A DNA stretch of 42,237 nt, from NCBI GenBank assembly GCA_021737265.1, contig JAIPEF010000007.1, positions 1 to 42,237 on the forward strand, given 5' to 3'. Positions 1 to 36,790 of this stretch are shown here, piece by piece (within the stretch, counting starts at the first letter, position 1; each line of letters starts with the position of its first letter). The notes beneath the pieces are model-generated. The model was not told where the DNA came from and searched no databases. It saw only the letters and a program-made list of their open reading frames with translations. The DNA is from Desulfocapsa sp. GTDB lineage: Bacteria > Desulfobacterota > Desulfobulbia > Desulfobulbales > Desulfocapsaceae. A program made the position numbers and the translations under genes.

Positions 1-137
1 ATGCCCGGTAGTTAGGGTGAAAAGCTTCATATTCGAGGCGTGTGAATTTTGCTATTATTTCGGCGTACTAGAGTACGTCGTAATGATAGTGAAATTTGCA
101 ACAACGAAGTAGATGAAGAGTTTTTACGACACCATCA
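1..137 (-). repeat. Dispersed palindromic element copy R1 (left side cut by window edge)
   Basis: Reverse complement starts TTGATGGTGTCGTAAAAACTCTTCATCTACTTCGTTGTTGCA and contains the central hairpin ..TTACGACGTAC-TCTA-GTACGCCGAAA..; same organisation as copies at 11934 and 35967. Confidence 0.8.
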
Positions 138-11877: not shown

Positions 11878-11933
11878 CACCTCTCCATTATGATTGTTGC
11901 AGCACTTTTCCCATATGGTATGCTTGTCATGTT

Positions 11934-12111
11934 TGATGGCGTCGTATTTATACCCTTTTTTCGGGTGAAAACTCTTCATCTTGTTCGTTGTTACAATTTT
12001 TCTATCATTACGACGTACCGTATGTACGCCGAAACGATAGAAAAATTGCACGCCTCCAATATGAAGTTTTTTACTTATCCATCGGAAATCGAAGTTTTTA
12101 CGACGCCATCA
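11934..12111 (+). repeat. Dispersed palindromic element copy R2, full length (178 bp)
   Basis: 13-bp perfect terminal inverted repeats TGATGGCGTCGTA/TACGACGCCATCA; inner hairpin CAATTTTTCTATC(11994-12006)/GATAGAAAAATTG(12036-12048). Confidence 0.9.
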
Positions 12112-12178
12112 TGTTTAGAGAGAGCACTTATTTTCTCATCTACTTCTCAACTAAGAACATTGAACGGACTTAGACACA

Positions 12179-14681: not shown

Positions 14682-14747
14682 GTACCCGTAATTAGGGTAA
14701 TTCCTGCGTAACAACGAACAAGATGGAGAGTTTTCACGACGCCATCA
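14682..14747 (-). repeat. Dispersed palindromic element copy R3 (internally deleted)
   Basis: Reverse complement TTGATGGCGTCGTGAAAACTCTCCATCTTGTTCGTTGTTACGCAGGAATTACCCTAATTACGGGTAC. Confidence 0.7.
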
Positions 14748-14759
14748 ACAAAGATAGAG

Positions 14760-15344
14760 ATGAAAAACAATCACAACAGTATCAACAGTCACGAAATAGG
14801 ATTTGATCTGGACGGAGTTATTGCCGACACCGGGGAAGCCTTTATCCGTCTGGCATGTGAAGAATTTGACTATTGCTCCTTTCGCCTGGAGGATATCACA
14901 AGTTTCCAGGTGGAAGACTGTATTAATATTCCAACTGACCTGGTGGAACAGATCTTTTATGCTATCCTCCGAGACTCACTGGGAACCGGACTCACTCCCA
15001 TGTCAGGGGCTGTGGAAGTTATTGCAGAGATGGCTGATAAGGCTCCGGTAACCATTATCACGGCTCGCAACCTGGAACGTCCCGTCAGCGACTGGCTGGA
15101 TCACTTTTTTCCCGCCAGAACCTGCAGGCAGATACGGCTTGTGGCCATGGGTGATCACGACGACAAAACCCGCTACATCAAGGAGCACAAACTCCGGTAT
15201 TTTGTCGATGACCGGATGAAAACCTGCCTCCAGCTGGCCGACAATGAGATCACTCCCATTGTCTACAATCAGCCATGGAACAAGGGTAAACACAATCTGC
15301 AGAATGTGAGCAACTGGCAGGAAATCAAAGCACTACTTGCATGA
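14760..15344 (+). CDS. HAD-superfamily phosphatase / 5'(3')-deoxyribonucleotidase-like
   Basis: IGFDLDGVIADTGEAF (motif I), VTIITARNLERP (motif II), RYFVDDRMKTCLQLAD (motif III/IV). Confidence 0.8.
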   Translation: MKNNHNSINSHEIGFDLDGVIADTGEAFIRLACEEFDYCSFRLEDITSFQVEDCINIPTDLVEQIFYAILRDSLGTGLTPMSGAVEVIAEMADKAPVTIITARNLERPVSDWLDHFFPARTCRQIRLVAMGDHDDKTRYIKEHKLRYFVDDRMKTCLQLADNEITPIVYNQPWNKGKHNLQNVSNWQEIKALLA

Positions 15345-15392
15345 TGGCGTCGTATTTATCCATCGGAAATGAAGAATTTTCAGGACACTCCA
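15342..15392 (+). repeat. Dispersed palindromic element copy R4 (short form)
   Basis: TGATGGCGTCGTATTTATCCATCGGAAATGAAGAATTTTCAGGACACTCCATTA; right end degenerate. Confidence 0.7.
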
Positions 15393-21061: not shown

Positions 21062-21155
21062 TGATGGCGTCGTATTTATCCCCCTCAAGGGAGGACTGAA
21101 AAGAGTACCCTTTTTTCGGGTGAAAACTCTCCATCTGCTTCGTTGCTGCATTTTT
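21062..21155 (+). repeat. Dispersed palindromic element copy R5 (left half only)
   Basis: TGATGGCGTCGTATTTATCCCCCTCAAGGGAGGACTGAAAAGAGTACCCTTTTTTCGGGTGAAAACTCTCCATCTGCTTCGTTGCTGCATTTTT; about 2 mismatches to the copy at 33357. Confidence 0.85.
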
Positions 21156-21172
21156 AGCCCAACTTTGCGTGA

Positions 21173-23830: not shown

Positions 23831-23867
23831 GCCATCCTAGGTTTGTGGGTTTTACGAGTTTATCAAA
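23831..23867 (+). repeat. Dispersed palindromic element fragment R6 (right end)
   Basis: GCCATCCTAGGTTTGTGGGTTTTACGAGTTTATCAAAT, near-identical to 36091-36125. Confidence 0.7.
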
Positions 23868-32080: not shown

Positions 32081-32130
32081 TGATGGCGTCGTATTTATCC
32101 ATCAGAAATCGAAGTTTTTACGAGTTTATC
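32081..32130 (+). repeat. Dispersed palindromic element copy R7 (short form)
   Basis: TGATGGCGTCGTATTTATCCATCAGAAATCGAAGTTTTTACGAGTTTATC. Confidence 0.8.
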
Positions 32131-33356: not shown

Positions 33357-33453
33357 TGATGGCGTTGTATTTATCCCCCGCAAGGGAGGACTGAAAAGAG
33401 TACCCTTTTTTCGGGTGAAAACTCTCCATCTGCTTCGTTGCTGCATTTTTTAT
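33357..33453 (+). repeat. Dispersed palindromic element copy R8 (left half only)
   Basis: TGATGGCGTTGTATTTATCCCCCGCAAGGGAGGACTGAAAAGAGTACCC...GTTGCTGCATTTTTT. Confidence 0.85.
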
Positions 33454-33507: not shown

Positions 33508-35835
33508 TCAATCTTCCCCCACAGGTTTCCAGACCGGACCAGTAGCTGTATCAATGATCTGAATGCCACGACGAATCAGTTCATCCCGTACCTCATCCGC
33601 TGCCTGCCAGTCTTTCTCCAGGCGGGCTTTTTCCCGCCGCTGAATCAGCGCATTGACAGGCGGTGCGAGTGGGCAGCCTTTCAAACGGAAGATATGCAGA
33701 ATCTCATTGATCTTACGCAAGCTTTCCAGAATATATTTTTTCTGGTCCCCATCCAGATGATTGACATGGAGGATCGGATTAGTCTGCTTGATAAACTTAT
33801 ACACAGCACCCATCCCCTTTGACACATTGAGATCATCATCCATGGCCTCAAAAAACTGCTCTTCCATGGCTGAGACATAGGCCGCAACTTCAGGATGTGG
33901 TTTGCCGGGGGGCAGGCAGAGCAGTTTGCAGGTAAATTCATCAATCCTGCGCAGGGCTGTCCGCACAGTGGTCAGCCGGCGAAAGGAAAAGTTAATCGGC
34001 TTACGATAGTGAACGGAAAGCAGCATAAAGCGAACATCACGAGGACTAAAGCCGCGCAGCATAACATCTTTTAAGGTGATTATATTACCGGCCTCTGCAG
34101 ACATCTTTTTCCCGTCCACCAGCAACAGTTCAGAATGGAGCCAGTACCTGGCCAAAGGTTTGCCGGTAAGGGCTTCGGCAATGGCTATCTCGTTTTCATG
34201 ATGGGGGAAAATCAGATTACGGCTGGAGGTATGAATATCCATGGTCTCACCCAGGTATCTGGTCGACATTGCAGAACATTCAATATGCCATCCCGGGCGA
34301 ACATTTCCCCAGTCGGTCTCATAAAAAATCCCTTCTTTCAACTCTGCCAGGGTGGAACGCTTGAGCAGGGTGAAATCGCGGGGATTATCCTTCTCATAGT
34401 TATCCAGGTCAACCGTCCGCCCCAACTGAATCTTACCAAGATCAATGCCGGAAAGGCGCCCGTAATTCTTGAATTTTGAAATATCAAAATAGATTGAACC
34501 GTGCTTTTCATAGGCAAAGCCTTTGTGCAGCAATTCATGGGTGATCTCGATCATGTCAGCCACATGCTCGGAGGCCTTGGGATAATTTGTTGCCTGCTTT
34601 ACAGCCAGTGCCTCAATATCCTCCATAAAACCATCAATATACTTGGTGGTAAATTCCTGCAGCGACTTCTTGGCAGCCCTTGCCCCTTCAATGGTATTAT
34701 CATCCAGATCGGTGAAATTCATACAGGAGTTCACCTCGAACCCCTTATGCTCAAGGTAGCGGGTGATGAGGTCCGACACCACAAAACGTCTGCACAGAGA
34801 AAGATTGGCCGGTTCATAAGCCGTTGGCCCGCAGGTATAAAAGGTGACCGACTTTTCCTGCTGCGCTTGGAATTCATCCTTCTTTTTCGTCAAGGTGTTG
34901 AAAAAACAGAGGCTGGTTTTTTTTTCTTCCACCTTGTTTTTTCTGGTAAAAAGGGGGGTCGAAAGATAGCGTTCACCACCATCCGGGATAATGACCACAA
35001 CAAATCCATCTTCCAGCTCTTTGACCAGATCAAGGGCAGAATACATGGCCGCACCACTGCTCATGCCGACCAGCATCCCTTCTTTTCTGGCTAAAAGCCG
35101 AGCCATGCGAAAGGCATCCTCATCATGAACATTAACTATGCTGTCCGGCAAAGACTTGTCAAATATTCCGGGCCGATAGGACTCCTTCATATTTTTCAGT
35201 CCCTGAATTTTGTGGCCAAGGAAGGGCTCTACCGCAATAATTTTCACATCAGGATGCTTTTCATGAAACCACTTGCAAAGCCCCATCACTGTCCCGGATG
35301 TGCCCAGAGTAGCAACCACGTGGGTTACTTTCCCCTCTGTCTGCTCCCATATTTCCGGTGCGGTATGTTGATAATGGGCCATCCAGTTTGCTTCGTTATT
35401 AAACTGGTCAGTCAGATAATAACGATCCGGAAACTCGCGGGCCATATCATAGGCCTTCTCTATAGCACCATCAGTACTCCTTTTTGCCGGTGTAAGAAGA
35501 ATCTCAGCACCATAGGCCTGCATGATTTTTCGACGCTCAAGGGATGCGGATTCGGGCATGACCAATTGACAGCGATACCCTTTTGCGGCACAGACCATGG
35601 CCAGACCGATGCCGGTATTACCACTGGTTGCTTCAAGGACGATTTTATCCTCTGTCAACTCGCCGCTGGACTCTCCCGCCTCAACAAGGGACAATGATAT
35701 TCGTTCCTTTACTGATCCACCTGGATTTTTAGACTCCAGCTTTCCATAGATAGGAACCTGAGTAGGGTTCAGCCGATTAATGCGAACCAGAGGAGTATTG
35801 CCGATTGCATCTAAGATAGTATTACAGAGAGTCAT
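33508..35835 (-). CDS. Fusion of PLP-dependent cysteine synthase and cysteinyl-tRNA synthetase-like domain (HIGH/KMSKS degenerate)
   Basis: N-half: ILDAIGNTPLVRINRL, NPGGSVKERI (PLP Lys), EATSGNTGIGLAM, LGTSGTVMG. C-half: FYTCGPTAYEPANLSLCRRFVVSDLITRYL, GWHIECSAMSTRYLGETMDIHTSSRNLIFPHHENEIA, LLVDGKKMSAEAGNIITLKD. Confidence 0.92.
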   Translation of the reverse strand: MTLCNTILDAIGNTPLVRINRLNPTQVPIYGKLESKNPGGSVKERISLSLVEAGESSGELTEDKIVLEATSGNTGIGLAMVCAAKGYRCQLVMPESASLERRKIMQAYGAEILLTPAKRSTDGAIEKAYDMAREFPDRYYLTDQFNNEANWMAHYQHTAPEIWEQTEGKVTHVVATLGTSGTVMGLCKWFHEKHPDVKIIAVEPFLGHKIQGLKNMKESYRPGIFDKSLPDSIVNVHDEDAFRMARLLARKEGMLVGMSSGAAMYSALDLVKELEDGFVVVIIPDGGERYLSTPLFTRKNKVEEKKTSLCFFNTLTKKKDEFQAQQEKSVTFYTCGPTAYEPANLSLCRRFVVSDLITRYLEHKGFEVNSCMNFTDLDDNTIEGARAAKKSLQEFTTKYIDGFMEDIEALAVKQATNYPKASEHVADMIEITHELLHKGFAYEKHGSIYFDISKFKNYGRLSGIDLGKIQLGRTVDLDNYEKDNPRDFTLLKRSTLAELKEGIFYETDWGNVRPGWHIECSAMSTRYLGETMDIHTSSRNLIFPHHENEIAIAEALTGKPLARYWLHSELLLVDGKKMSAEAGNIITLKDVMLRGFSPRDVRFMLLSVHYRKPINFSFRRLTTVRTALRRIDEFTCKLLCLPPGKPHPEVAAYVSAMEEQFFEAMDDDLNVSKGMGAVYKFIKQTNPILHVNHLDGDQKKYILESLRKINEILHIFRLKGCPLAPPVNALIQRREKARLEKDWQAADEVRDELIRRGIQIIDTATGPVWKPVGED

Positions 35836-35929
35836 ATTTTAAGAGGAAAAACCCCATTTATTCATGAATGTCAGTGAGTTAATTGAGCAACAGCTTACAA
35901 TTGCAGATAGCTGAGTACTATATCCCTTC

Positions 35930-35964
35930 TTTAAGGTGAAAAGCTACAAATACGACACCATCAA
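35930..35964 (-). repeat. Dispersed palindromic element fragment abutting R9
   Basis: Reverse complement TTGATGGTGTCGTATTTGTAGCTTTTCACCTTAAAGAAGGG. Confidence 0.6.
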
Positions 35965-35966
35965 AG

Positions 35967-36125
35967 TTGATGGCGTCGTAAAAACTCTCCATCTGCTTCG
36001 TTGCTGCATTTTTTATTTAATTTCGACGTACCTTAGTACGCCGAAATTAAATAAAAAATACGCGCCTCGCATATGAAGCTTTTTACTTAGCCATCCTAGG
36101 TTTGAGGTTTTTACGAGTTTATCAA
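35967..36125 (+). repeat. Dispersed palindromic element copy R9 (near full length, long perfect hairpin)
   Basis: TTGATGGCGTCGTAAAAACTC...ATTTTTTATTTAATTTCGACGTAC(36008-36031)-CTTA-GTACGCCGAAATTAAATAAAAAAT(36036-36059)...TTTTTACGAGTTTATCAA; 24-nt arms with a single mismatch. Confidence 0.9.
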
Positions 36126-36238
36126 AGTTGAACAGAATTCCATTCTATTGCTATTTAGCTTTGGACGCAAGCAGGGAAAGCAGTGATTAACTACCGATTG
36201 AAAACTGACGACTGAACACTGCAAACTGCAAATTGTCT

Positions 36239-36790
36239 TTATTCTCTCCTGCACGCCTGAGACAAGTACCAGAAACGAACTAAAGATTCTCTCACATCCT
36301 TGTCCGAAATCGATTCCACCTGCCGCTCAAAGGCCGCAACATCCTTGGCCGGAGGCTGGACGTAGCGAAGAGAAGGCCCATTTTTTTTTTCATCCTTTTC
36401 CCTCTCTTCCAGACAAAAGCGAAGCCCCCCCAAGGTGGAGATGCGTAAGGATTTGTTCAGAATTTCCAGAAGCAACACTGTCTGAAACTGCAGCTGCTGG
36501 AGCCAGGCGGAATTCTCAACCTCCACCCACAAAATTTTTTTTACAATTTTTACCGGACGGCAATGGTCGGTTATGTCACTGTCCAGTAACTCCTGCCAAC
36601 GCAAAAAGATGGAATGCAGATCAAGCTTTTCTTCCCAGCCACGCTGCCGGGTAAGCTGCGGTAAGACATTACCCAGTTCAAATAAGGAATCTTTTTTTTT
36701 CAATATTTCAGCCAGAACTTTTATTGTTATTCTTGATGGCGTCGTATTTATACCCGACGTTGAGGTTTTTACGACGCCATCATTCTTCAT
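36239..36790 (-). CDS. DUF721 / DciA-like protein
   Basis: LDLHSIFLRWQELLDSDITDHCRPVKIVKKILWVEVENSAWLQQLQFQTVLLLEILN; N-terminal ~20 aa encoded by repeat R10. Confidence 0.7.
   Translation of the reverse strand: MKNDGVVKTSTSGINTTPSRITIKVLAEILKKKDSLFELGNVLPQLTRQRGWEEKLDLHSIFLRWQELLDSDITDHCRPVKIVKKILWVEVENSAWLQQLQFQTVLLLEILNKSLRISTLGGLRFCLEEREKDEKKNGPSLRYVQPPAKDVAAFERQVESISDKDVRESLVRFWYLSQACRRE
36734..36782. repeat. Dispersed palindromic element copy R10 (49-bp minimal form)
   Basis: TGATGGCGTCGTA-TTTATACCCGACGTTGAGGTTTT-TACGACGCCATCA, 13-bp perfect TIRs. Confidence 0.85.

Follow-up and report, generated by a model that had tools for sequence, protein, structure and literature searches.

A MITE-like repeat family of Desulfobacterota with a conserved hairpin, probably mobilised in trans

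Short intergenic repeats dispersed through a Desulfocapsa genome are likely to represent an old family of mobile DNA elements in Desulfobacterota that are non-autonomous and MITE-like, would be moved in trans by a transposase and carry a conserved hairpin. The family was studied from the copies in a 42,237-bp stretch of DNA (hereafter the window), which is the entire contig C4 of a 3.07-Mb assembly and whose left edge falls within one copy.

Copies and anatomy of the element

All ten copies listed in the initial annotation of the window are present, and their description as "almost all intergenic" is a fair one, as 3 of 169 sampled copies lie within an ORF of at least 100 aa (simple ORF call). 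Several copies had been regarded as full-length; within the window this holds only for 11935-12110 and 35969-36123, the copy at 7-136 being edge-cut and the others deletion derivatives or end fragments, and one derivative (~35907-35962) had been missed. The features are as follows.

7..136, minus strand: copy truncated in its outer right end where the contig stops, core intact and with an extra module (R1 E=4e-27)
11929..11934: target duplication ATGTTT, left of the 11935 copy
11935..12110, plus strand: complete copy from which the family was described, 176 bp, right end TACGACGCCATC, arm subfamily CAATTTTTCTATCATTACGACGTAC (R1 E=4e-24 on the minus strand)
~11945-11971: extra hairpin module inside the left end of the 11935 copy, added and outside the basic unit
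12111..12116: target duplication ATGTTT, right of the 11935 copy
14687..14746, minus strand: fragment with only the left end and first block
15343..15392, plus strand: short deletion derivative
21063..21157, plus strand: left-end derivative with two extra modules, lacking the right part
23831..23864, plus strand: fragment running from the inner right end through the tail to the outer right end
32082..32130, plus strand: 49-bp derivative that retains both ends and lacks the hairpin; its flanks, CTTCTT and CTTTTT, are one base apart
33358..33453, plus strand: left-end derivative, 97% identity to the one at 21063
35907..35962, minus strand: short derivative, new to the list, adjoining the 35969 copy across the common flank AAAGTT
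35963..35968: target duplication AAAGTT, left of the 35969 copy
35969..36123, plus strand: complete canonical copy, 155 bp, arm subfamily CATTTTTTATTTAATTTCGACGTAC (R1 E=1e-37 on the minus strand)
35969..36095, minus strand: hairpin core of the canonical copy, minus being the better-folding strand
36124..36129: target duplication AAAGTT, right of the 35969 copy
36735..36781, plus strand: 47-bp derivative with both ends and no core; perfect duplication ATTCTT at 36729-36734 and 36782-36787

Two observations concern the neighbouring genes. The stop codon TGA (15342-15344) of the ORF at 14760-15344 is composed of the T next to the 15343..15392 derivative and that derivative's initial two bases. 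A single 775-aa ORF at 33508-35835 (minus strand) fuses a cysteinyl-tRNA synthetase with a PALP domain of the type present in cysteine synthase.

The repeats of the window share one dispersed family: 251 matches of GATGGCGTCGTA with at most one mismatch were found in the 3.07-Mb genome, versus 13 for a reversed-motif control, and BLAST recovered at least 40 full or near-full copies. The elements are short, non-coding and of high copy number, full copies measuring 155-200 bp. The canonical element of ~155 bp consists of 16-bp imperfect TIRs, a ~127-nt hairpin core and an asymmetric right tail. As in MITEs, a terminal inverted repeat is found at each end, with the consensus GATRRNNTCGTAAAAA taken from a search pattern that itself fixes several positions. 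In the orientation of the 11935 copy the layout reads GATGGCGTCGTAAAAACTCTYCATCTGCTTCGTTGCTGCA - arm - CGACGTACnnnnGTACGCCG - arm' - GCGCCTCGCATATGAAGnTTTTTACTTAGCCATC - tail of ~12 nt - TTTTTACGAGTTTATC, and the copy at 35969..36123 follows this order: a left end and the hairpin core, then the inner right end with the tail, and last the outer right end. The unit thus has three end-like motifs, namely the two outer ones, left and right, and a third, inner motif at the hairpin base.

The TGATGG...CCATCA termini first described are present as end motifs, with the correction that their outermost letters, T and A, are part of the target duplication (A....T) and the element itself spans GAT...ATC. 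The palindromic right end TACGACGCCATC, at first taken as standard, proved to be a minority form found in tail-less elements (e.g. L211); the usual right end is TTTTTACGAGTTTATC, which follows the inner GCCATC and a variable tail.

Extra hairpin modules of the form TATTTATRCCC-loop-GGGTGAAAA occur within the GTA^AAAA motif of any of the three ends (left, inner right, outer right), and one copy may have them in a single end or in several. They were seen in the window (11945-11971, 21073-21126 and 33368-33421) and at L019, L046, L052, L221, L236, L518, L524 and L528; the additional hairpin of the 11935 copy is one of them. A second module, approximately CGAAGTCTGCGCTTATCTA, is found at this GTA^AAAA site in other genomes (L203, L230, L236, L238, L254 and the L088 flank). 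Contigs of the Desulfocapsa genome often end in a copy, and the family consequently is a plausible contributor to fragmented assemblies.

Target duplications and evidence of movement

Copies are flanked by duplications of 6, sometimes 7, bp with the target AWNNNT [A(A/T)NNNT]. An exact 6-bp duplication was present in 40 of 80 full-length copies, although such per-copy counts are not independent, the copies being kin. Flank identity at 6 bp was 0.74 versus 0.48 for shuffled flanks (80 full copies), with most other lengths near background. In the single-contig genome G036, from the same family as the Desulfocapsa assembly, 31 of 44 copies bear a 6-bp duplication and, with flanks read by eye, some 8 of the remainder one of 7 bp; among 163 duplications in a wider sample, 132 measured 6 bp, 30 measured 7 bp and a single one 5 bp. 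TIRs together with duplications are the footprint expected of a TIR-recognising transposase, and the combination found here identifies the repeats as MITE-like non-autonomous transposable elements, neither solo IS ends nor REPs.

Near-identical copies sit at unrelated sites. At one locus a copy present in the Desulfocapsa genome is absent between the orthologous genes of a diverged relative, and no base-precise empty site was recovered from that comparison. Derivatives of 47-127 bp that have lost most or all of the hairpin still bear duplications, forms as short as 47 bp retaining both ends; consequently, they either moved in that form or lost the core afterwards, and the core may be dispensable for movement.

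Copies often adjoin another copy or relic across a common target, as at 35907-36129 in the window and at L365 and L385, which suggests repeated insertion at one spot.

Search for the mobilising enzyme

MITEs usually derive from an IS with the same ends, which moves them in trans (PMC10969869). This lends some plausibility to a reading in which the copies arose by internal deletion from an ordinary IS that is still present, and the hairpin merely represents its joined ends. We nevertheless regard it as unlikely, given the pattern of transposase families and loci. PF01609, PF00665, PF00872 and NF033594 were each absent from several of the element-bearing genomes tested (all four from the element-rich G051; PF01609, PF00872 and NF033594 from G015), and PF01797 was absent from G037 only. 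With each of the five tested families missing from some element-bearing genomes, no mobilising enzyme was recognised. Likewise, none of the inspected PF01609 and ISNCY loci was bordered by family ends, and no gene-bearing unit with both ends was found among the G036 matches listed (about four-fifths of the end matches) or in the fetched stretches. The covariation of the core, described below, would also be unexpected for passive joined ends. The possibility raised at the outset that the copies are solo ends of an ordinary IS found no counterpart in the loci inspected, where no IS with these ends was seen, and no transposase-like family was prominent among the recurrent neighbour genes of copies.

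Several individual candidates were set aside. The PF01609 locus L143 only holds inserted copies, and ISNCY_2 is almost confined to G033. The rve and IS256 families are absent from many element-rich genomes, the flanks of their loci having been scanned by pattern only. A 1.28-kb pair of ends at L247, considered as an autonomous copy, consists of two truncated elements around a cyclase-like gene, and unpaired ends in G036 are one relic and one isolated match.

The initial annotation had suggested looking for a TnpA_REP (Y1) or other transposase with matching ends. On a Y1 route, a REP-like element would be moved by a RAYT/TnpA_REP transposase acting on single-stranded hairpin DNA. The hairpin is indeed preferentially conserved on one strand, and genes for RAYT-like Y1 enzymes are frequent in the group. 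The copies, however, have TIRs and 6-7 bp target duplications, and to our knowledge Y1 enzymes are not known to make either. Furthermore, G037 bears copies and has zero Y1 matches, inspection of 30 Y1 loci gave one partial match and no full copy next to a Y1 gene, and Y1 genes are present also in genomes without BLAST-detectable copies. Taken on this evidence the Y1 route is highly improbable.

A non-autonomous element moved in trans thus remains the preferred reading, with the mobiliser probably a DDE-type enzyme. The search turned up neither an enzyme nor an autonomous copy, and the DDE mechanism is accordingly one that we infer.

Selection on the hairpin fold

The arms of the central hairpin differ between copies, and the early observation that opposite arms change to match is borne out by the alignments. 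Alignment A1, made from the better-folding strand of 48 diverse copies and aligned without structure, supports a 50-pair hairpin with 89% paired cells. Double-change cells numbered 217 versus 75 in shuffles, and the covariation score was 0.299 versus 0.07-0.10 with partners slid. Among the 7,875 column pairs of a 106-sequence alignment, nine of the ten strongest covarying pairs are hairpin pairs. A tree-based null was applied with a purpose-written, R-scape-like test, not R-scape itself: when structure pairs alone were tested 13 of 49 were significant, and in the underpowered all-pairs test one structure pair passed in each alignment. Covariation of the proposed pairs therefore exceeds the phylogenetic null as well as the shuffled and slid ones, and one strand folds better. 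That the compensatory changes reflect selection on the fold, as had been proposed, is supported.

Outside the Watson-Crick hairpin list, columns 28:97 also covary significantly; they apparently form a non-canonical contact within a conserved internal loop.

The predicted energy was lower on one strand in 44 of the 48 diverse copies and in 57 of 59 distant phylum-wide copies, in a comparison that selects nothing and cannot separate RNA from single-stranded DNA. G.U outnumbered A.C by 173:53, or by 47:27 when distinct within-cluster events were counted, and a cruder wobble test on distant copies gave a weak bias of 123:105. Much of the strand difference could stem from a few conserved positions.

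Intrastrand template switching can correct palindrome arms, and matching changes might accordingly arise by repair of imperfect palindromes instead of selection on a fold. The right end of L211, which mirrors the left end and bears a duplication, would fit such an origin. Conversely, the mirror forms L212 and L244 have inverted flanks that resemble contig-end assembly fold-backs, the unpaired internal loops, which template switching would erase, are conserved phylum-wide, and the strand bias is unexpected. We consider template switching improbable as the explanation. The perfect left-left palindromes at L212:69-197 and L244:36-168, rejected as proof of the process, lie at contig ends and are likely products of assembly fold-back.

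Strong covariation and strand-specific folding would also be expected if the hairpin were a host-serving RNA regulator (an mRNA-level element, terminator or sRNA) with incidental or past mobility, and a similar Geobacter family is termed "predicted short RNA elements" in the section of the Geobacter study concerned with it (PMC2700814). Against this stands the orientation of copies relative to flanking tandem genes, which is even (41:41) and thus argues against service at the mRNA level and for a step in the life of the element itself. Near-identical copies at unrelated sites and the loss of the core in many copies point the same way, and Rfam returned no family at threshold, only unrelated sub-threshold matches. 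A regulatory role for the host is, on balance, very unlikely.

A further alternative retains mobility and gives the fold a direct part in it: an orphan phylum-wide element in which the strand-specific fold of the hairpin, as RNA or as single-stranded DNA, is itself required for movement, with an unrecognised, possibly host-encoded enzyme leaving the 6-7 bp duplications. This we consider a tentative reading of low probability.

Distribution in the phylum

The genome-wide covariance-model search suggested at the outset was carried out with model R1, which matched 76 of the 117 genomes surveyed within the order and 56 of 158 within the phylum, nearly all of the 158 lying outside the order; most genomes surveyed are drafts of varying completeness and contamination. 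On inspection the copies from these other bacterial families have the same ends, blocks and tail, and duplications were found in 24 of 59 copies. Desulfocapsa and further Desulfobulbaceae account for most named records with the element family, alongside Desulforhopalus; two bins labelled Sulfurovum and Pseudomonadota carry it as well, under labels that may be wrong. One query of phage and plasmid records gave no family match, and viral contigs yielded just isolated motif matches and no element.

Proposed mechanism and significance

In the proposed mechanism a trans-acting transposase, probably of DDE type, would recognise the 16-bp ends, cut targets of the AWNNNT type with a stagger of 6-7 bp and insert the element, and gap filling would then leave the target duplication. 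The hairpin would be kept since its better-folding strand is folded at some step, as element RNA or as single-stranded DNA, and presumably not for service to neighbouring genes.

These results unify previously unannotated intergenic repeats of Desulfobacterota into a single family, and the covariance model lets them be masked or tracked. A widespread element without a recognisable transposase points to an unrecognised mobilising enzyme, and the strand preference makes the involvement of a folded nucleic acid in DNA-element mobility a testable idea.

Comparison with known systems

The BOX elements of Streptococcus pneumoniae are modular, with fixed ends and variable inner units. The Desulfocapsa family shares this modular build and differs from BOX in sequence and host, and in that its modules lie inside GTAAAAA end motifs.

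Bacterial MITEs reviewed to date include Correia, ERIC, QMITE2 and Chunjie (PMC10969869). Like these, the present elements are short, gene-free, intergenic and of high copy number, with TIRs, target duplication, truncated derivatives and a transcript predicted to fold stably. Unlike them, they have other ends and duplications of 6-7 bp, and both their sequence and a covarying hairpin are conserved phylum-wide; a partner IS was looked for and not found. Chunjie, according to the part of that review devoted to it, is a MITE of 178-235 bp from Geobacter uraniireducens, a member of the same broad bacterial group (PMC10969869); it was set beside the Desulfocapsa family by description only.

REPs are palindromes of 20-40 bp tagged by GTAG or CGTC, the CGTC repeats being without a dedicated transposase (PMC3733652). 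The present family resembles REP/BIME repeats as a set of dispersed imperfect palindromes and, as for CGTC-tagged REPs, no dedicated transposase was recognised for it. However, REPs are without target duplication (PMC3733652), whereas the elements described here are ~155 bp long with TIRs and target duplications.

In the literature the Geobacter families were the only leads for this element. The relevant section of the Geobacter study describes the Gmet_R1005 elements as intergenic and multicopy, with 24 published copies and the central palindrome GRCGTAGCGCTGCTACGCC (Aklujkar 2009, PMC2700814). It also reports relatives in Desulfotalea psychrophila and, for the Geobacter short RNA family, a copy that two species have at their orthologous dap locus (PMC2700814). 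The palindrome is close to the GRCGTA...TACGCC centre of the Desulfocapsa family, and the exact Gmet_R1005 centre is absent from the first 443 loci. In that section the repeats are presented as RNA elements, without ends, duplications or mobility (PMC2700814). The Gmet_R1005 family, compared by its palindrome centre only, is a probable partial precedent of, and likely identical with, the Desulfobacterota element. What seems to be new is the recognition of these repeats as one phylum-wide mobile family with defined ends, a defined target and a conserved one-strand fold.
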